From the IMG/VR virus record IMGVR_UViG_3300041411_000106, positions 1 to 25,675 of that record: 25,675 nucleotides of DNA; one strand, 5' to 3'. Positions 1-25,675 of the stretch are shown here, one piece after another (the first letter of the stretch is position 1; each line of letters opens with the position of its first letter). Made by a program: the position numbers and the translations under genes. This DNA comes from a virus. A model generated the notes under the pieces. The model worked only from the letters and a program-made list of their open reading frames with translations. It made no database searches and had not been told where the DNA came from.

Positions 1-226
1 GGAGTGGCTAAACGCACTGGTCCCCTTGCGATTCTCGACAAACTTGTCCGTTCACCTTAAGCACTAGTATCTGAAGTTCGAGGAGAGAGTAACTGTCTCC
101 GTCCCTTCCTTTTTCCCTGTGGGAAAACTGAGTGCCTCCTCGCCGACGGACATCTCCTGGGTCGACCCCGTCTGGGTACCCCTCGAGATCCTGAAGAGCG
201 CGAAAGCACGGGTAGTGCTAATTGGC

Positions 227-297
227 AGGGCTATCCTCTTTATTGAGCCTCCGCTTCCCAATCCGGACATCCAGAGTTAGATAGCCCTGGGATGTCC
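227..297 (+). other. H-type RNA pseudoknot
   Basis: Stem A pairs 227-235 with 280-288 (AGGGCTATC with GATAGCCCT, nine perfect pairs) and can be extended by 236-239 with 273-276. Stem B pairs 265-272 with 290-297 (GGACATCC with GGATGTCC, eight perfect pairs). The order A-B-A'-B' is that of a pseudoknot, with one base between A' and B' so the stems could nearly stack. Two perfect interleaved helices within 71 bases are unlikely to be chance, but this was found by eye without a folding calculation. Confidence 0.6.
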
Positions 298-470
298 ACC
301 CCGGAATAGTATTCAATGCTTTAAAGGTTGAAGTTACTTCGACCGCCTCTTTTCTCCCAGAATCGGGAGCTGGAGGGCTCACCGGTAAAGTCTGCAGCTG
401 AGTTAACCTGGTTTATAAGTACTTTAACCAGGAGCTCGGGGAGACCAACCCGGGTATTCCGAAACCTGAA

Positions 471-499
471 AGCCGACCTTAAAACAGTCGGCTTTTTTT
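471..499 (+). terminator. Rho-independent terminator of the structured RNA
   Basis: AGCCGAC (471-477) pairs perfectly with GTCGGCT (487-493) across a nine-base loop, followed directly by a run of T to 499. It separates the RNA segment from the gene starting at 565, so that gene probably has its own promoter in 500-556 or depends on readthrough. Confidence 0.88.
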
Positions 500-564
500 A
501 GTTCATCTGCGGTCTGGCTGGTATAAGAGTAGTAAGAAAGCCCATTGATTAGATTGGAGGATGT

Positions 565-1044
565 ATGATTGATCCTAGAGCAAATAGTCCAGAACGTCTG
601 GATGCACCTCACCCTCTTCCTTGCGTTAGTCGTCGTGCTCTGAAACGCGTCAAGAACCCCCTTCCTCCGCCTACGGAATGTCCTTGCTGCAAAGGCCCAG
701 TTAGACTGGTCAGCAACTCTGAGATTTACAATGGCCGTGAGTACGGGGAGTGGCCGTACATGTACTACTGCAAGCTCTGTGACGCCTACGTGGGCCTTCA
801 TCCGGCTACGGACATACCTTTGGGTACGATGGCTACGAAGGTCGGCAGAGAAGCTCGTAAGAGCTCCAAGACGGTGTTCCACAAACTCATGGACATCACC
901 CAGAAAAGTCGAGCAGATATGTACGCTTGGCTTGCAGACAAAATGGGTATGACCCGAGGGGAATGCCACTTCGGATGGTTTGACGAACAGAACTGCGCTA
1001 GGGCAGAAGCTATCTGCTCACTCGAAATCAAAAACATCAAATAA
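565..1044 (+). CDS. DUF3268-like zinc-ribbon protein
   Basis: A 159-residue protein resembling the DUF3268 zinc-finger-containing family found in many phages and some bacteria. Two Cys pairs, C39-P-C-C42 and C69-K-L-C72, form the probable zinc ribbon. Between and after them are the family-typical stretches SNSEIY, YGEWPYMYYC and GLHPATDIPLGT, and a C-terminal CHFGWF motif. No biochemical role is established for the family that I know of; zinc-dependent nucleic-acid binding is a guess. The start has a GGAGG site just upstream (556-560). The gene ends 18 bases before the Ro60-like gene and probably shares its transcript, so a role in RNA handling is possible but unproven. No truncation or frameshift is seen. 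Confidence 0.85.
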   Translation: MIDPRANSPERLDAPHPLPCVSRRALKRVKNPLPPPTECPCCKGPVRLVSNSEIYNGREYGEWPYMYYCKLCDAYVGLHPATDIPLGTMATKVGREARKSSKTVFHKLMDITQKSRADMYAWLADKMGMTRGECHFGWFDEQNCARAEAICSLEIKNIK

Positions 1045-1062: not shown

Positions 1063-2568
1063 ATGACTACTGCAACTTCTGATGTACATGGCCGATATTT
1101 CATTACCCCGCTGCAAATCCTGGAGCGGTTTCTCCTCACCGGCTCCATGGCGGCAACCTACACCGCCAACGATAAGTTCGCAGATTACTCTGCGGAGAAC
1201 ATCAAGACGGTGCGGACCATCTTCGAATGTTTCCCTGACGCAGCGTTCAAAGTTCTTCACGACGTCTGCATGTTGAAGAAAGCCCCGCGTAAACCTCCGG
1301 TGATCCTGGCTCTGGCTGCTGCTCTGGGCGTAGAGTCGATCAAGGCTCAAGCCGAAGGTCTGGCTATGGCCGAAATCAACACGGGCACTGATCAGTTCGT
1401 TCTGACCAAGATGTTGGTTGATTTGGGTCGTGGCGGTGGCCGTTCGTTCAAACGTCAGGTTAACACCTTGTACCGGAAACTGGACCGTCAGGATGGTGAA
1501 CATCCACGAGATCAACTGGCCATGAACTTGGTCAAGTTCCGTAACCGTGCTGGCTGGACTCACCGCGACATTCTTCGGGTTGGCCACTACAAGCCAACCA
1601 AGAAGAACAACGATCTGTTCAAGTGGGTCGTAGGTAAAGGCCCTGCGACTCACCCTCTGATCATTGGTTTTGAAGAGGCTGGTCGAATCACTACTCCGGT
1701 AGAAGCAGTTCAACTTCTGGTTCGAGATCCGAAATTACCGTGGGAAGCCTTTCCTACCGAAGTTCTCTCCAATGCTCCGGTCTGGGAAGCTCTCCTGCCA
1801 AATCTCGGTAACTCGGCATTGATCCGTAACTTGGGTCGCATGTCGTCTCTGGGTATTGATCTGTCTCCGTATGTAGGCCGCATCGTCGGTGCCTGTCGGT
1901 ACCTTCACCCGGTTGCAGCTTTGTCTGCCTGGAAAACTTACTCGCAAGGCAAGGGCCTGAAAGGTAGCTTGGTCTGGGCTGCGAACAAAGATGTAGCAGT
2001 GGCTCTGGAAGAGGGCTTCTACGCTTCTTTCGGTCAGCTGAAGAAGTCTGATTCCAAGGTCTTCTTTGGCTTGGACATTTCAGGTTCCATGGGGACCAAC
2101 TCCTCTACGGTCGCAGGTTTGAACTGTCGGGAAGTAGCAGCGGCCATGGTAATGGTGGCTATGAAGCAGCAGCCTTACATGGTTTACGGTTTCAGTCATA
2201 CTCTGGTTCCGCTGGAAATTAAGGATGACTGGAGTCTTGGTGAGGTGATGAAGTCCATCAGCCGTCAGGATTTCGGTTCTACTGACTGCTCTCTGCCGAT
2301 TCGTTTCTGTAACCAGAACGCCATCCGGGACGTGGACTTATTCGCCATCTACACGGACAACGAAACCAACCAGCGTAATAAACCTTCGGACGCTCTCAAC
2401 GAGTACCGTCGGAATATCAACCCTAACGCCAAGCTTGCTACGGTGGCGTTGATGGGTGGTGCGTTCAGCATTGCAGATCCAAACGATCCAGGCCAAGTTG
2501 ACTTCGTGGGTTTCGACCCTAGCGTCCCTTCTGTCATGGTTTCACTGGCTGAGCAAAAACTCGTCTAA
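1063..2568 (+). CDS. TROVE-domain RNA-binding protein (Ro60/Rsr homologue)
   Basis: The 501 residues match the usual length of Ro60 orthologues. The N-terminal two thirds (about 1-330) is the helical TROVE ring that in Ro60 binds Y RNA on its outside and the single-stranded ends of misfolded RNAs through its central hole. The C-terminal third is a von Willebrand A domain with an intact metal-binding MIDAS: D338-I-S-G-S342, T407 within GSTDCSLPI, and D432 within YTDNET. GSTDCSLPI is close to the corresponding Ro60 motif. AAGGAG lies nine bases before the ATG. In bacteria, Ro60 works with Y RNAs and exonucleases in RNA quality control and rRNA maturation. Here it sits downstream of a structured RNA and upstream of RNase H and a DHH phosphoesterase. 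The phage role is unknown; decay or remodelling of host RNA, or protection of phage RNA, are inferences. Confidence 0.93.
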   Translation: MTTATSDVHGRYFITPLQILERFLLTGSMAATYTANDKFADYSAENIKTVRTIFECFPDAAFKVLHDVCMLKKAPRKPPVILALAAALGVESIKAQAEGLAMAEINTGTDQFVLTKMLVDLGRGGGRSFKRQVNTLYRKLDRQDGEHPRDQLAMNLVKFRNRAGWTHRDILRVGHYKPTKKNNDLFKWVVGKGPATHPLIIGFEEAGRITTPVEAVQLLVRDPKLPWEAFPTEVLSNAPVWEALLPNLGNSALIRNLGRMSSLGIDLSPYVGRIVGACRYLHPVAALSAWKTYSQGKGLKGSLVWAANKDVAVALEEGFYASFGQLKKSDSKVFFGLDISGSMGTNSSTVAGLNCREVAAAMVMVAMKQQPYMVYGFSHTLVPLEIKDDWSLGEVMKSISRQDFGSTDCSLPIRFCNQNAIRDVDLFAIYTDNETNQRNKPSDALNEYRRNINPNAKLATVALMGGAFSIADPNDPGQVDFVGFDPSVPSVMVSLAEQKLV

Positions 2569-2601
2569 TAGACGTAGTTATCTTTGGTATAACTACATTG
2601 T

Positions 2602-2628
2602 GGGAGCCGTAACTGGCTCCCCTTTTTT
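2602..2628 (+). terminator. Rho-independent terminator after the Ro60-like gene
   Basis: GGGAGCC (2602-2608) pairs with GGCTCCC (2615-2621) across a six-base loop and is followed by six T to 2628. A second perfect hairpin, GTAGTTAT (2574-2581) with ATAACTAC (2589-2596), precedes it right after the stop codon. The T run ends only 14 bases before the RNase H start, leaving no room for a promoter, so it may act as a partial terminator or attenuator for the next gene. Confidence 0.85.
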
Positions 2629-2642
2629 GTTTAGGAATGAAA

Positions 2643-3107
2643 ATGACAGACCTCAAGAAAGTAATGATGCACACCGATGGTTCTTGCATTGGAAATCCTG
2701 GACCTGGTGGCTGGGGAGCCATCCTCTCTTTAGGTGAAGTAGACAAAGAATTCTCTGGCGGAGAGTCCCACACTACGAATAACCGAATGGAGATGATGGC
2801 TATCATCCAGGGTCTTGCAGCTCTGAAAGAACGTTGTGACGTTACGGTAGTCTCCGACTCCAAATACGTAATCGACAACATCCGCAGCATCCACACCTGG
2901 AAAAGTCGGGGATGGAGAACTACCGCAAAGAAACCGGTAAAAAACAGAGATCTCTGGGAAATTCTGGACGAGAGCTGTATTCACCAACAAGTAACCTTCC
3001 AGTGGGTCAAAGGTCACGACGGTCATCCTGGTAATGAACGTGCTGACAAACTCGCTAATGACGCGGCAAAGGCTGCGGAGACAGAACTTCGTGAAAAAGC
3101 TCGTTAA
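2643..3107 (+). CDS. rnhA: Type I ribonuclease H
   Basis: RNase HI cleaves the RNA strand of RNA-DNA hybrids, for example primers and R-loops in replication. All key residues are present (numbered from the alternative ATG at 2637): D14 in HTDGSCIGNPGPGGWG, E52 in TTNNRMEM, D74 in VVSDSKYV, H127 in WVKGHDGHPGNERAD, and D137 in the same stretch. Length of about 155 residues is normal for the bacterial enzyme. Of the two in-frame ATGs, 2643 sits six bases after TAGGA (2632-2636), whereas 2637 directly abuts that site, so I prefer 2643. The gene begins just after a strong terminator, suggesting expression by readthrough. Family assignment is very secure. Confidence 0.95.
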   Translation: MTDLKKVMMHTDGSCIGNPGPGGWGAILSLGEVDKEFSGGESHTTNNRMEMMAIIQGLAALKERCDVTVVSDSKYVIDNIRSIHTWKSRGWRTTAKKPVKNRDLWEILDESCIHQQVTFQWVKGHDGHPGNERADKLANDAAKAAETELREKAR

Positions 3108-3155
3108 GAAAGTTGCAGTACTTTCCATCAACGTAACTCTGTACTGGATGATCTA

Positions 3156-4133
3156 ATGAAAACAGTAGTGTTTTATCATTCTCATTGCTTCGACGGGACC
3201 ATGGCTGCTGCGGCAGCTCTGGAAGCAATTCGTGAAGGTCGATTGGACTGTGATGAAAAAGAAGGGTTGATCCCTATCGGCTACAACCAGTCTGACTGGG
3301 ATGGATTCTTCGCAGAAGATCCAAAAGCACCGTACCAATTGGCGTTGGCACAAAATGTTGAGCAGATCATTTTTGTGGACTTCTGTCCTAAGCCTGTAGT
3401 GGTTCAGGATCTACTCTCAGTAGAGATCAAGGTAGTTATCCTAGACCATCACAAAACTGCTCGCGATGATGCGAAACAGTTGGAAGGGATGAAGGGCCTC
3501 GATCTGATTTTCGATATGACGAAATCTGGTGCTCGTTTGGCATGGGAGTATTTCCGTAAAGGCGTTGAGAACCCTTCGGGGATACCGAACCTCGCTCTTC
3601 ACGTAGAAGATCGTGATCTCTGGACTTGGGCGATGCCTAGGACTAGAGAAGTTATCGCGTGGATGTCGGCATCGGCAGAAACCAATGACCCGGCGTCATA
3701 CCTACTCGCAATCTACGATTTCAGTCTCTTTCCCGAAGAGTGTATCAAGGCAGGATCTTTTCTCTGCAAGGAGATGGATACCCAGATCAAAAAGATGGCC
3801 AGCTCCTACCGTTATCTTGAAGTCCAGGGTTATGGTAGCGGCATCGTAGTAAATGCCTCGTGCTACCAGTCCGAAGTTTGCCAGTACCTGTACGACCGTC
3901 ACGAAGTTCCTTTCGTGATTGCCTACAATGCTACTCGTGGTGGGGAAGTAGCTCTGAGCATGCGCAGCAAGCAGGGTGCTGCTCATTCAGTAGATGTGTC
4001 GCAAATGGCCAAGATGTTCGAAGGGGGTGGCCACGTTAACGCCGCAGGTGGCGTCTGTGAACTTGAACGTTGGGTGGATTTCCTTCACGGGAGTAGCCAC
4101 CAAGATAAAGCTCTTGCCAAACGAGGACTGTAA
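3156..4133 (+). CDS. DHH/DHHA1-family phosphoesterase
   Basis: This 325-residue protein belongs to the DHH superfamily of metal-dependent phosphoesterases, which includes oligoribonucleases (NrnA/NrnB), RecJ and cyclic-dinucleotide hydrolases. Motif I is YHSHCFDG (D13 is the clear metal ligand; the common HxDxDG form is altered). Motif II is VDFCP (D75), motif III is LDHHKT (D97-H98-H99), and a later DMTKSGA matches the conserved region after the DHH core. The C-terminal GGGHVNAAGG (290-299) is the DHHA1 substrate-binding signature. With RNase H and a Ro60-like protein next door, degradation of short RNA products (nanoRNA) is a sensible guess, but cyclic nucleotides are another possible substrate. 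A weak GGA lies seven bases before the ATG. It follows RNase H by 48 bases. Confidence 0.88.
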   Translation: MKTVVFYHSHCFDGTMAAAAALEAIREGRLDCDEKEGLIPIGYNQSDWDGFFAEDPKAPYQLALAQNVEQIIFVDFCPKPVVVQDLLSVEIKVVILDHHKTARDDAKQLEGMKGLDLIFDMTKSGARLAWEYFRKGVENPSGIPNLALHVEDRDLWTWAMPRTREVIAWMSASAETNDPASYLLAIYDFSLFPEECIKAGSFLCKEMDTQIKKMASSYRYLEVQGYGSGIVVNASCYQSEVCQYLYDRHEVPFVIAYNATRGGEVALSMRSKQGAAHSVDVSQMAKMFEGGGHVNAAGGVCELERWVDFLHGSSHQDKALAKRGL

Positions 4134-4135
4134 CC

Positions 4136-4297
4136 ATGTGGAAGAAACTTTGCCTTGCCGACATCAACCCGATGAAGGCTTTCGAAATATCTCTGATGCG
4201 TGATCGTGCCAAGTTCTGCATCGAAAAGAAGACCAACCTCGTTGGGGTTGCCCGAATCGTAATCAAAAAGAAAAAGGCCATTAGCCGTGGAAATTAA
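4136..4297 (+). CDS. Small basic hypothetical protein, 53 aa
   Basis: The reading frame starts at an ATG three bases after the stop of the DHH gene, with GAGG (4123-4126) nine bases upstream, and ends in TAA inside the next gene. The product begins MWKKLCLADIN and ends with a lysine-rich tail (VIKKKKAISRGN), giving it a strongly basic C-terminus. I recognise no domain. Position, ribosome binding site and tight spacing support it as a real gene. A basic tail could mean nucleic-acid or membrane contact, but nothing proves this. Confidence 0.6.
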   Translation: MWKKLCLADINPMKAFEISLMRDRAKFCIEKKTNLVGVARIVIKKKKAISRGN

Positions 4298-4730
4298 CGT
4301 GATCGATGCTATCCGCAATCTCTGCAACGCTGCCGAAGCTGCTGGCGGTCTGGACTCCAAGTTCGAGTTGAAGGTGAGCCAGGTTAAATCCTTGCTCGGA
4401 ACCATTAACGAACAGGAGCGTGAAATCCTGGGCATGGAACGTTCTTACGAGTCCATTAAGACGAAGATCCAAGGTCTGATCGATACTTTGGAATGCTACG
4501 ACTTCGACGAGTTCAGCCCGGACGATGATTTCGACGGTGAGATCTTCGAGATCTTCGTTGGTACCACGTCGGATCACGGTCGTATCTTCGGTATGTGGGA
4601 TGCTTCTTCAGGTTCGTTCCACGAACCTCCTGAAGAAAGCGGCCAAGTCTTCTACCGTGAAGATGTCCTCTTCTGGCGCTACTCCCTGCCTGAGCCTCAC
4701 GAAGCTCTCGATCTGGGTGATGCACTCTGA
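4287..4730 (+). CDS. Acidic hypothetical protein with N-terminal coiled coil
   Basis: A 147-residue protein of unknown function starting at GTG, with AAGG nine bases upstream and overlapping the preceding small gene by 11 bases, which suggests translational coupling. The first 70 residues are helical with heptad-like leucines and charges (KVSQVKSLLGTINEQEREIL). The middle is very acidic (DEFSPDDDFDGEIFEIF), and the C-terminal part contains aromatic residues (VFYREDVLFWRYS). No catalytic motif is seen. An acidic DNA-mimic or adaptor protein is conceivable but purely speculative. Confidence 0.75.
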   Translation: MEINVIDAIRNLCNAAEAAGGLDSKFELKVSQVKSLLGTINEQEREILGMERSYESIKTKIQGLIDTLECYDFDEFSPDDDFDGEIFEIFVGTTSDHGRIFGMWDASSGSFHEPPEESGQVFYREDVLFWRYSLPEPHEALDLGDAL

Positions 4731-4743
4731 GCTTTCAACTTAG

Positions 4744-4789
4744 CCGACTCCGAGCTATCATCGATTAAACGTAGTTAACTTGGAGTCGG
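4744..4789 (+). promoter_or_regulatory. Possible RBS-sequestering stem before the membrane protein gene
   Basis: CCGACTCC (4744-4751) is perfectly complementary to GGAGTCGG (4782-4789) across a 30-base spacer. The second arm contains the GGAG ribosome binding site (4782-4785) of the gene starting at 4792. If the stem forms, it would hide the site, so translation could depend on unfolding, on a trans-acting factor or on upstream ribosome movement. No folding energy was calculated. Confidence 0.45.
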
Positions 4790-4791
4790 AA

Positions 4792-5280
4792 ATGCTTGAA
4801 GAAGACGAAGGCGCATACTATTTAGAGTTCTTCTCCCGGTCTATCGGGATTAGTATTTTTCTATCCCTGTTCTTGGCTCCTATAGTTCCAGGATGGGTGG
4901 CGCAGTATTTCCTAGTAGCAGTGGTTTCTATCGCTGCTATTTCAGGAATTCTGTTTATCTGGATCAGAAAGAATTTTCAAAAACTTGCTGAAACAGGTCT
5001 TTCAAACTCTACCGCTCAAACTTTGCTTTCCGAAGATGCATCCACTATGTTCAGAGTCACTGGCAGTACGACTCTGATTCTATTGGTTGTGATTCTGTGG
5101 ATGGGGTTCGCGAAGATGCTTTGGATATTCGAAAGTTTCTTCGTACTCCTTGCCGCAATTCACATCGCAACTTCGGTAGTTTTTACGTTCATTGAGTTGG
5201 TAGCTATACGAGGGGAGATCGATGACCTCACAGATTGTGTTTATGGAGCACAGCCCGATAACGATGTTGAAGAGGGCTAA
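4792..5280 (+). CDS. Four-helix membrane protein, unknown function
   Basis: About 162 residues starting at ATG 4792, chosen because GGAG (4782-4785) lies six bases upstream; an in-frame TTG at 4780 is less likely because that binding site overlaps it. After a short acidic N-terminus come two hydrophobic stretches (near residues 18-58, including SIGISIFLSLFLAPIV and VAVVSIAAISGILFIW), a soluble loop, and two more (near 92-140, including LILLVVILWMGF and FVLLAAIHIATSVVF). The tail is acidic. It probably sits in the host inner membrane. Host takeover, superinfection exclusion or holin-like activity are all possible, but no family is recognised. Its translation may be controlled by the stem at 4744-4789. 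Confidence 0.78.
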   Translation: MLEEDEGAYYLEFFSRSIGISIFLSLFLAPIVPGWVAQYFLVAVVSIAAISGILFIWIRKNFQKLAETGLSNSTAQTLLSEDASTMFRVTGSTTLILLVVILWMGFAKMLWIFESFFVLLAAIHIATSVVFTFIELVAIRGEIDDLTDCVYGAQPDNDVEEG

Positions 5281-5404
5281 CTCCCCTCAGTCGTTAGGGA
5301 ATTTCCTGTACTCTGTTTGTAATTACCCCCATCATTCTAGAGAACGAGAAGATCTTAGGTATAGTCCTAATTTCGAAGAGAATAGCCTGCAAGGGTCTTT
5401 TCAC

Positions 5405-5839
5405 ATGACTATCATGACTGGACAAGTGGAGTTCAAGGGGAAGTTTTTCAGGGAGCAGGCCTACGTCAACCAGTACCTACTAGACCGAGGCATCGCTATA
5501 AAGCTAGGCTTAGTAGATATGAGGGAAATCCGAAATCGCGCAGGTTCTGGTAGCGGAATCCTCTTTATCGAGGAAATTAAGTATTCAGGAGCTACTCTGG
5601 GCAGCATGGCTGTCAGCCGAGCAAAAGCTCTTCTTAAAATTCCCGCATCGACAACCGGCCACCACGATTTAGACACTCAGTTTCTAGGGGTGAAGGCCGG
5701 GAAGCTGATACACACCAGATCTGGAGACTTAATCCCTCCAGATGAATGGGTTCCTCTGTATCGTCCCGGAAGTATTTTGGGGCCTGTAGAGGAAGGACTC
5801 CCTATTAATTTGGAAGAGGTGGAGCATGTCATCGTTTAA
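5405..5839 (+). CDS. Hypothetical protein, 144 aa
   Basis: I do not recognise this protein. I chose ATG 5405, with AAGGG (5391-5395) nine bases upstream, giving a product that starts MTIMTGQVEF. The open frame runs back to an ATG at 5222, which has a purine-rich AGGGGAG four bases before it, but that start would overlap the membrane protein gene by 59 bases and add about 61 residues of unremarkable sequence. The core has mixed strand and helix character (GILFIEEIKYSGATLGSMAVSR) without a catalytic signature. It overlaps the following gene by 14 bases, so the two are probably co-translated. The 124 bases before the chosen start hold only a small hairpin, TTAGG (5355-5359) with CCTAA (5366-5370). 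Confidence 0.65.
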   Translation: MTIMTGQVEFKGKFFREQAYVNQYLLDRGIAIKLGLVDMREIRNRAGSGSGILFIEEIKYSGATLGSMAVSRAKALLKIPASTTGHHDLDTQFLGVKAGKLIHTRSGDLIPPDEWVPLYRPGSILGPVEEGLPINLEEVEHVIV

Positions 5840-23109: not shown

Positions 23110-25535
23110 TATGCAGTTACCTCTCCTGAGGAGCCATCGTCGTCTGAAGCTACCACTGGAGTTGGGATAGTCCCAATCTCATCTCGTGAAGGTGCAGGAT
23201 CGTCAGAGTAATCCAAAAACATGCTTTCTCCAGGCTCCATCAATCTTGATTCTTCAAGAATAGGTTCTTCATACGAGAATACGATAGGGCCGTAGTTGTC
23301 AGCAGACATATCAATGAATTTAACTCCGAACCTCTCCTCGTACTGAGCTTTAGTTTCAACAGGTCTAAATACTAGGCCTAGGTTCCCTTCACCAGATACG
23401 TGGGCTGTGGTGCTCCCTTCGCTTAGCGTAGTTGGTGATCCATTCAATCTGGTATGTGGGTATGGAGTACCGGTTGAAAAGTCGTACAGGAACTCTGGAG
23501 CTGCTGCACCGACACCTAGGGTAGATAGGTAGAACTTGGAAGCAGTGTCTCTGGCAACCGTGTTATTTACGATGGTTGCTTTATAGATAGTTTTCCCGGT
23601 CTCATCAGTTTCTTCTGAAAGAGTGTCCGTGACTGACTGAAGCCAGGGGTGCGTATACTGCTGTTCGTAGTTTCCAAGCTCTTGATAGCTCATTGCAGAA
23701 ACAAAAGATACGCTTGTCTGAAGACTTCTGGAGGTGATGGTATGAGAGACGTCTACGCAGAACGCATGGAAGCTAGGTTCTGTAGGAGTAGGGTCGATGA
23801 TGTCCATCGGGTAGCCTGGGACAATGTACGGGTTGAAAATCAAAGTGCAGTTACCCGTTCTAGCTTTAGCAGTCTCGGTCGTGAATTTATAGTTGGCCGC
23901 AGCGAACAACATTCTTTGATAACTGTTTATCTCCGAAGACTGATCCCACGGATTCAGTTGTTTTTTCTTTTCGTCCTGATCGTACCGGTACTGCCATGCT
24001 TTTCTAAACTTCTCAACCTGAATACCTTCTGGGGTTGTATCGGCAGGACGAGTTTCACTTGAGCTAGGAGATTCCTGCTGCATGCTTTCTGCAAGAATAG
24101 CCAGCCACTTAGGAAGTTGAATTCTCTGGTGGCGAATACCACGACCTTGTTCGTACTTACCAATTTTGAATTGAGAAGACGAAGTGGTCCGGGCTAGAGA
24201 CGCGTAGTGCTCGGAATCGCCATTTAGTTCAGCGATACCTTTCGCAATGGCTTCTAGAACGGATTGCGGGGCTCGGTAGTTAACTCCAAATTGTCCAGAA
24301 CTCTGAGGTACGTTATCGTTTACAGCAGTAATTCGAGTAGGTACCGATTGTTCGTCTTGGTTGATATTCAGAGAGACGATCATGTGCGGAAGAATTACGT
24401 TACACGCAGGTGAGTAGTAATGTGGCATCTGCGGCTTAACGATTACGTCTATCGCTGAGGTATCTACTCCGGCTTCTGCGGTTCGAGGATCTTTTGGAAC
24501 TTCCGCAGGAGCATTCAAAAACACCATGTCGTATTCTACAGACATCATGAAATTCTGAAGAATCTGTAGATACGAAGTCAACTCTCCTGAGAATTGCCCT
24601 ACGGTATAAATTACTTGCGTAGAGATATCTGCTTGGACGGCAGACTGCATAAGGGTCTTGTGGGCAGGAGGAATCAACCTAGGATCAGTCTCTAGAGAAT
24701 GGTCGCCGGTAGACTCTGAAGTACAAGGATCACATTTGGAATCATTGATTTGTTGTTCTACCGGAAAATGTCCACCGATTCTTCGGAACAACTGCGTTCC
24801 CTGCTCCACCATCGGAATGTACATACGGGTCATTCCCTCGTACATCATTGGATTTTGGTAAGCCTGGGCTTTCAGTTGATTCCACATGTTCAGAGGTACG
24901 CCAGGAAATCCGGTGAATCGGTATTTCAGATCCTCTAGGTACTTTGGTACCGAGTCATACTGGGGAACTCTAGTTTTGTCTTTTAGGTTTACGATATTTA
25001 CTTCGTCACTGCCCCCGACTTTCAGAGGATCGATCCCCGTGAGTGCCATGCCTATGGATTGTAGGGAGTTGAAAACGTTTGTTTTTACTGCTGCCTCACC
25101 TTCGTTGGTGTTTGTCACGCTGGCATTACTATCACTGGCGTACCCGGAATAATCCATGGTAACCATGTCTAGTTTTGCATAGCGGTGCTCACAGTTAAAA
25201 CTTATGTACTTTTGTCCAGGAGACTGGGTGGATTTATAGTAGGTGGTAGATACGATATTTCCAGAGAAGAACAGGCAGTCCTCCTGAGTCACAGGATCTT
25301 TGTAGAATACATGCACCTTAGGCTCGTAATACCTGCAGATCTCCATAAGTCCAGTTTGAGATGGGACTTGGATATTCATGCGGGGTAATGAGCCAAGGCT
25401 TGACTGTATGTTGATAGCCATGAATGGGACCTGTACACCTTCGATGTACAAGCTGAATTCCTGGAACATCACATCTGTCCGTGGACTTGATGCGATAGAT
25501 CCAAGATTCTGGTTACCAGTTAAATCGAAACCCAT
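23109..25535 (-). CDS. Large baseplate hub-like structural protein, 808 aa
   Basis: An 808-residue structural protein. Its N-terminus (FSLYIEGVQVPFMAINIQSS, RMNIQVPSQTGLMEICRYYE, VHVFYKDP, LFFSGNIVSTTYYKS) has the succession of strands seen in hub proteins of the gpD/gp27 type, which form the ring through which the spike passes. Near residues 570-640 NPYIVPGYPMDIID, then CVDVSHTITSRSLQTSVSF, repeats the hub-like pattern of a docking strand followed by a His-Ser-Thr motif. The C-terminal part is acidic and low in structure (PTPVVASDDDGSSGEVTA). GGAG about ten bases upstream supports the ATG. Hub function is inferred from fold-like features; no lysozyme domain is seen. Confidence 0.76.
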   Translation of the reverse strand: MGFDLTGNQNLGSIASSPRTDVMFQEFSLYIEGVQVPFMAINIQSSLGSLPRMNIQVPSQTGLMEICRYYEPKVHVFYKDPVTQEDCLFFSGNIVSTTYYKSTQSPGQKYISFNCEHRYAKLDMVTMDYSGYASDSNASVTNTNEGEAAVKTNVFNSLQSIGMALTGIDPLKVGGSDEVNIVNLKDKTRVPQYDSVPKYLEDLKYRFTGFPGVPLNMWNQLKAQAYQNPMMYEGMTRMYIPMVEQGTQLFRRIGGHFPVEQQINDSKCDPCTSESTGDHSLETDPRLIPPAHKTLMQSAVQADISTQVIYTVGQFSGELTSYLQILQNFMMSVEYDMVFLNAPAEVPKDPRTAEAGVDTSAIDVIVKPQMPHYYSPACNVILPHMIVSLNINQDEQSVPTRITAVNDNVPQSSGQFGVNYRAPQSVLEAIAKGIAELNGDSEHYASLARTTSSSQFKIGKYEQGRGIRHQRIQLPKWLAILAESMQQESPSSSETRPADTTPEGIQVEKFRKAWQYRYDQDEKKKQLNPWDQSSEINSYQRMLFAAANYKFTTETAKARTGNCTLIFNPYIVPGYPMDIIDPTPTEPSFHAFCVDVSHTITSRSLQTSVSFVSAMSYQELGNYEQQYTHPWLQSVTDTLSEETDETGKTIYKATIVNNTVARDTASKFYLSTLGVGAAAPEFLYDFSTGTPYPHTRLNGSPTTLSEGSTTAHVSGEGNLGLVFRPVETKAQYEERFGVKFIDMSADNYGPIVFSYEEPILEESRLMEPGESMFLDYSDDPAPSRDEIGTIPTPVVASDDDGSSGEVTA

Positions 25536-25538
25536 TTA

Positions 25539-25675
25539 CTACACTCCAACGTCGTAGAACACACCGTACAAAGCTAGGATGTACAGCTCCCGCTCTAACG
25601 GGTCTTTGATATTAGCAATATAATTCAAATAGGTAGGTGGTATGTACTGAGAAAATTCACCAAGCGCAGTTTCCA
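25539..25675 (-). CDS. Unidentified tail-region gene, 3' end only
   Basis: The minus strand has an open frame running in from the right edge and ending at TAG (25541-25539), just before the hub-like gene. The visible 45 residues include EFSQYIPPTYLNYIANIKDP and ERELYILALYGVFYDVGV. The start lies beyond the window, so family and length cannot be judged. Its position suggests another tail gene of the same transcript. Confidence 0.7.
   Translation of the reverse strand, partial: ETALGEFSQYIPPTYLNYIANIKDPLERELYILALYGVFYDVGV

Follow-up and report, generated by a model that had tools for sequence, protein, structure and literature searches.

The first 499 nucleotides of the window, by which we mean the entire IMG/VR record of 25,675 bases analysed here, probably constitute the 3′ part of a phage non-coding RNA of approximately 1.29 kb which would act as a multivalent scaffold for Ro60. 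As read from the sequences, the region comprises two minimal Y units, three Y units with a permuted-tRNA (YrlA-type) mimic as their upper part, a pseudoknotted 3′ domain of about 420 nt and one terminator, with the Ro60 operon next to it. That these parts form a single transcript is inferred, and so is the binding of Ro60, which is deduced from the motif and the gene neighbourhood.

Extent and anatomy of the RNA region

The record is a 25.7-kb fragment in which position 1 lies inside the RNA, and the RNA segment in the window is incomplete because the RNA begins some 790 bases before that position. Two longer contigs were found via relatives of the window's Ro60 gene: L002 (116 kb), which matches the first 1.1 kb of the window at 99% identity (adding 4938 to a window position gives the L002 position), and L003 (165 kb), with 72% DNA identity across the RNA and 68% identity of the Ro60 protein. 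In both contigs a stretch of about 1.2-1.3 kb without a conserved ORF extends from an extended −10 promoter-like box (TGGTATAAC; L002 4134, L003 3914) to the window's terminator, and the stretch is preceded by a gene end, in L002 that of a metallophosphoesterase gene. The RNA spans about 4148-5437 (~1.29 kb) in L002. The parts are arranged in both contigs as Y, Y, Y+tRNA, Y+tRNA, Y+tRNA, 3′ domain and one terminator. Nearly the whole of the Y array is located upstream of the window, whose positions 1-50 hold the 3′ side of the last unit. After the terminator follow a conserved promoter-like box, the DUF3268 zinc-finger gene and Ro60, with an additional 69-aa ORF in L003. The features of the window are listed in Table 1.

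Table 1. Features of the window in and around the RNA region (positions of the window).
Feature	Position	Strand	Remarks
What is left of the third tRNA mimic's D-arm, in the last Y unit	1-17	+	Its T-arm and acceptor hairpin precede position 1
3′ strand of the putative Ro60-binding stem, last Y unit	28-50	+	GCGATT 28-33, inner helix; internal loop ending ACTT 34-45; GTCCG 46-50, outer helix
Ornate 3′ domain, new structured RNA	51-468	+	72% identity in L003, excess of conserved helices; no Y unit, tRNA mimic or Rfam match
Long-range helix AGCACUA/UAGUGCU	60-66/213-219	+	A-U to G-C compensatory change in L003
H-type pseudoknot	226-297	+	226-235/280-289 (10 bp; U-A to C-G, L002 vs L003) interleaved with 265-272/290-297 (8 bp; A-U to G-C); no G-U; helices abut at 289/290
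Long-range helix CGGAAUA/UAUUCCG closing the last subdomain	302-308/455-461	+	Kept in L003
Hairpin inside the last subdomain (302-461)	326-333/337-344	+	
Helix inside the last subdomain	347-351/365-369	+	Three double changes, L002 vs L003
Intrinsic terminator, inferred RNA 3′ end	469-499	+	Stem AAAGCCGAC/GTCGGCTTT (469-477/487-495), T-run of seven (493-499); stem identical in L003
Putative extended −10 promoter GGTATAAGA for the DUF3268-Ro60 genes	519-528	+	After the terminator; conserved in L002 and L003
DUF3268 zinc-finger protein gene	565-1044	+	Between RNA and Ro60; Pfam PF11672 2.3e-32; relatives in Pseudomonas and Achromobacter phages
Phage Ro60 (Rsr) gene; its product is the presumed partner of the RNA	1063-2568	+	Pfam vWA_Ro60 4.4e-43, TROVE 1.9e-11

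The original prediction, made from the window alone, described positions 1-499 as a structured, gene-free segment, and this description holds: no conserved ORF was found, and none of 100 dinucleotide shuffles folded as well as the segment (z −2.6; minus strand z −1.7). The interleaved pseudoknot and the strong terminator it had proposed were likewise recovered, and in each helix of the former one double change between L002 and L003 preserves the pairing. The RNA is upstream of the Ro60 gene as claimed, but not directly, the DUF3268 gene being in between. A size of at least 499 bases was borne out in that the RNA region is larger still (~1.3 kb), of which the window holds only the 3′ part. The suggestion of a new ornate RNA applies to positions 51-468 and the terminator (51-499), which form a new structured domain lacking Y units, and not to positions 1-50, which hold the remainder of one.

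This remainder was identified by R1, our tRNA-mimic model, in which window 1-33 is a 5′-truncated match to model positions 57-88; the third tRNA-mimic module is complete in L002 4881-4971 and L003 4567-4655. The partners of window 28-50 are AATCGC and CGGAC in L002 (unit L002 4852-4987), and the last unit of L003 keeps both helices with other bases, CGGGC/GCCCG and GATCG/CGATC.

In the 3′ domain, eight perfect helices of at least 7 bp were common to both phages, compared with 1.1 +/- 1.0 in column-shuffled alignments. Helices of at least 6 bp with a double change also numbered eight, against 1.9 +/- 1.5, a count equalled in none of 60 column shuffles. The structural evidence for this domain is good but limited, because only two effective sequences are available. 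Pattern scans of IMG/VR, and nhmmer over the phage Ro60 loci collected by then, detected the domain in L002 and L003 only, and a blastn search of phage records with the window RNA gave no match. No significant Rfam, R2 (see below) or nhmmer match was obtained for the domain elsewhere, and R2 sees no unit there beyond chance.

Given its similar size, pseudoknotted structure, phage origin and tRNA-like neighbourhood, the 3′ domain could be conceived as a self-assembling cage RNA of the GOLLD or ROOL type fused to Ro60 docking sites, the more so as the GOLLD linker can carry tRNAs (PMC12286853). We find this improbable, since the Rfam covariance models of GOLLD, ROOL and OLE had no match at the gathering or the E<=10 level.

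Little credence is also given to positions 51-499 being mainly a cis-acting leader or attenuator of the DUF3268-Ro60 operon without a role in an RNP. Such a function would suit a terminator just ahead of the operon, but the conserved promoter-like box comes after that terminator, only conserved pairings of 5-6 bp could compete with its stem, and the region, far longer than known attenuators, shares one ORF-free stretch with the Y array. The promoter-like boxes themselves are to be read with caution. The extended −10 motif is common by itself (about 2-4 expected per locus), GGTATAA occurs in the window at about the number expected by chance, and a promoter scan demanding a consensus −35 found nothing.

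Relatives of the zinc-finger neighbour point to phages of Pseudomonas-like hosts. Homologues of Ro60 were found in 338 phage records, and the family profile matches Rsr 2NVO (4e-173) and Ro60 1YVP; by these matches the phage protein is plainly homologous to known Rsr/Ro60 proteins. Right after Ro60, at window 2585-2629, a conserved TGGTATAAC box is followed by the hairpin GGGAGCC-GUAAC-UGGCUCCC and T6, which in L003 reads GGGAGAC-GUAAC-UGUCUCC, a compensatory change; this element is either the Ro60 terminator or a tiny RNA. RNase H and DHH phosphoesterase genes come thereafter (window 2637-4133), and the operon thus looks devoted to RNA metabolism.

Y units and tRNA mimics

The repeated motif was first read in the distant phage L065. 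On its 5′ side an outer helix has C as its last base and is followed by CG, a short loop, the first strand of an inner helix and (GG)UUAUC. The upper part comes next, and on the 3′ side the second inner strand leads into a loop with CUU or UUU at its end, then to G and the second outer strand. When only these pairings were demanded, 690 kb gave 90 units on the Ro60 strand, compared with one on the opposite strand and 1.7 in shuffles. The minimal Y units contained 143 double-change cells against 52 +/- 6, and outer pairs outside the selection rule also covaried (columns 4-72 paired in 26 of 26, with four pair types). The 26 short units, all from other phages, were the basis of the covariance model R2; the window's phage was not in the training set.

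R2 matched L002 at 4179-4243 (49 bits, E 3.8e-9) and 4252-4322 (22 bits, E 0.013; 9e-5 unfiltered with the stretch alone), and L003 at 3953-4014 (32 bits, E 6e-5). The second minimal unit of L003, 4017-4089, is weak (11.5 bits). The first L002 unit carries the lower-stem motif GAUCCGAAUGG...GGUUACC...UUAACUUG. From L002 to L003 the stem of unit 2 underwent four compensatory changes, from UUCUGGGC/GUCCAGAG to UCUCGUGC/GCACGAGA; two further changes of this type are found in the second tRNA-mimic unit and one in the outer helix of the last unit. By the pairing pattern and these changes, a terminal stem with a Ro60-type internal loop is present in the units.

When the full stretch was searched with cmscan, YrlA (RF02553) was matched in L002 (E 7.7e-7, 1.9e-4 and a weak third match) and in L003 (E 1.4e-8 and 7.1e-6). 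The clear matches scored 31-45 bits (best 45.4), below the RF02553 gathering cut-off of 69 bits. Each module has the architecture of a permuted tRNA, that is T-arm, closed acceptor hairpin and D-arm, and three are present in each contig. Across 16 modules from nine phage records 95% of cells were paired, with 65 double-change cells against 22 +/- 4, and covariation was strongest in the acceptor hairpin. The three tRNA-mimic units lack a clear R2 score and are supported by RF02553, R1 and pairing; in the one at L003 4403-4526 the inner helix is 9 bp long and the outer helix is GAGC/GCUC.

The T-arm and D-arm sequences are tRNA-like, and R1 also scores pairs of tandem tRNAs, up to about 42 bits, so matches below about 45 bits were not trusted alone and most weaker ones were retained in the locus tally only with a paired acceptor hairpin. 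That the pieces are decayed tandem tRNA genes is nevertheless already contradicted and hardly tenable. ARAGORN finds no tRNA in them, the T-arm precedes the D-arm, and covarying Ro60-type stems take the place of anticodon arms. Runs of ordinary tRNAs are excluded because the acceptor hairpin covaries across phages, while in tandem genes one acceptor strand would come from one gene and the other strand from another. Intron-split tRNAs were considered and dropped, given the T-arm-then-D-arm order, the closed acceptor hairpin and the absence of an intron match beyond chance.

A covariance search against Rfam, which the original prediction had recommended, gave only chance-level matches with the window alone and found YrlA only in the full-length stretch of L002 and L003. 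The model built from other phages matches both minimal units of L002, and covarying pairs occur between L002 and L003 in the 3′ domain and in the unit stems. The idea of a Y-RNA-like or composite partner of Ro60 proved largely right: the full-length homologues are composite, with YrlA modules, minimal Y units and the Ro60 gene downstream, binding being inferred.

Y units at other Ro60 loci

In 85 largely non-duplicate phage Ro60 loci, at least one unit was present near the gene in 61, at least two in 43 and at least three in 29; the 43 multi-unit loci had two to eight units each. Units were located upstream of Ro60 in 140 cases and downstream in 21. These counts derive from hand-merged R1 and R2 match lists, in which matches near tRNA genes were checked. 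In 16 whole records, 47 of 48 R2 matches were by Ro60. Some of the loci trained R2, which makes their own R2 matches partly circular, a concern that does not touch the strand bias, L002/L003 or the cellular loci. The cellular Ro60 loci, from GTDB genomes and none of them used in training, displayed 34 R2 matches and many tRNA-mimic matches on the Ro60 strand, typically one or two units per locus, with a maximum of about five. Having Y units in tandem ahead of Ro60 is thus not peculiar to phages; what stands out in the window's phage is the number of units without a terminator between them, together with the large 3′ domain.

A second group of phages, L065 (1264-2860), L094 (1137-2845) and L081, has five to eight Y units in a row, followed by a structured 3′ domain of its own (~410 nt) and a terminator before Ro60. 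This domain is different from that of the window, and no alignable relation was found between the latter and those of L065/L094. One acceptor-type hairpin in this group is 18 bp long. Five Y units are present in L043 (2366-2900), and they are probably separate small Y RNAs, because a T-run follows each.

The L043 arrangement bears on whether the window's array, too, yields separate Y RNAs, from their own promoters or by precursor cleavage, followed by an independent ncRNA of ~450 nt, with no working 1.3-kb molecule. In Salmonella two Y RNA genes neighbour rsr (PMC7790460), and in L065 a promoter-like box at 1341 lies between units; both observations are compatible with separate RNAs, a reading that we judge unlikely overall but regard as a serious contender. 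Against it, L002/L003 and L065/L094 lack T-runs between units and have a single one at the very end, and no promoter-like box was found on the RNA's strand inside the L002/L003 array. One transcript is preferred by inference, resting on one promoter-like site and one terminator in the absence of transcript data.

Several further loci were observed. L019 (Cronobacter phage GAP32) has a strong YrlA-type tRNA mimic at 4988-5075 (81 bits), although none of the records in which a homologue of the window's Ro60 was found is a Cronobacter phage. In L025 (Mycobacterium prophage prophiGD43A-5), an annotated tRNA-Thr at 2136-2214 coincides in part with the first module of a tandem series of three to four Y modules; it may in truth be a tRNA mimic that was misannotated. 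In L105 (Listeria phage A511), no Y unit was found by RF02553, the pattern or R2. Directly upstream of Ro60 on its minus strand (record 25300-25560) are three tandem hairpin-closed elements, AGGAATC..GATTCCT, AGAGAGC..GCTCTCT and AGGAAGC..GCTTCCT, with a common ACAGCAA-TACTA box, possibly a divergent Y array missed by the unit pattern and R2. In Listeria phage CKA15, a relative of A511, noncoding regions near the Rsr gene are massively transcribed (PMC12282133). This is a hint and not proof, and such expression is not claimed for the window RNA because the A511 counterpart is without these units.

Proposed function and relation to known RNAs

In the scaffold reading, a single transcript would start from the conserved promoter-like box ahead of the first unit. 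The lower stem of each unit (N3C-CG...inner helix-GGUUAUC ... ACUU-GN3) would dock one Ro60 ring, and several Ro60 molecules would therefore be gathered by one RNA. The tRNA mimics may be effector domains as in RYPER, where Rsr binds the Y stem and the tRNA-like domain of YrlA binds PNPase (PMC8394870). Alternatively, they might be decoys for tRNA-acting enzymes, an idea raised for YrlA with respect to tRNA nucleases (PMC7790460). The 3′ domain might stabilise the RNP or help its assembly, protect the 3′ end or recruit a further partner. The outcome could be a multivalent Ro60-RNA particle for degradation or quality control, formed in infection.

We tentatively propose, with rather less than even confidence, a new class of giant phage Ro60 scaffold RNA, in which one transcript has numerous Y units (five in the window's phage, at least eight in L065) and a lineage-specific ornate 3′ domain and brings several Ro60 rings and tRNA mimics together in a single particle, with animal-type stems and a possible shared ancestry of Y RNAs. 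To our knowledge, work on the biology of bacterial Ro60 and Y RNA has been confined to a small number of species, and the Ro60 genes of phages have been annotated without a partner. A large set of these genes now has a clear candidate partner, whose chained form predicts multivalent Ro60 particles, and a covariance model is available that detects Y units by cellular and phage Ro60 genes. The occurrence of animal-type Y stems in phages makes the origin of Y RNA a testable question. The 3′ domain with its pseudoknot represents a kind of structured RNA that had not been catalogued before and offers a new object for structure determination.

GOLLD, ROOL and OLE resemble the phage RNA in being large, structured and of phage or bacterial origin, GOLLD and ROOL also in their tRNA neighbourhood. 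They differ in having no described Y units and no match in sequence or structure by Rfam.

Animal Y RNAs (RF00019) and nematode sbRNAs (RF01656) have a lower stem in common with the minimal phage units: outer helix, CCGA, an inner helix of ~9 bp, GGUUAUC and 3′ ACUUG. The phage units differ from them in being tandem and in their upper parts. RF01656 was matched in 7 of 19 records searched (best E 1e-7 to 7e-5), in all cases beside Ro60. The best scores were 37.6 bits for RF01656 (phage L068) and 30.4 for RF00019 (L043, E 3.4e-4 in a sensitive scan), so that both remained below the gathering cut-off of 38 bits. Neither family was matched in L002 or L003, and the whole-record search with RF00019 gave nothing near Ro60. 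As the minimal units are animal-type Y stems, phage and animal Y RNAs may share ancestry and not only have converged, but for these stems common descent cannot be distinguished from convergence on a single protein surface.

Salmonella rsr-yrlBA and the Rsr-Y RNA-PNPase complex (RYPER) of D. radiodurans share with the phage a Ro60 with adjacent Y RNA, in Salmonella more than one. Unlike the phage, they have one or two small RNAs, and no ornate 3′ domain is described in the literature examined. YrlA (RF02553) resembles the phage modules in being a permuted tRNA on a Ro60-type stem with 3′ AAACUUGUC and in having its gene beside Ro60/Rsr. YrlA is a single RNA of 90-150 nt (PMC8394870), whereas in the phage one ORF-free stretch of ~1.3 kb with one terminator combines three such modules with two minimal units and a 3′ domain of 420 nt.
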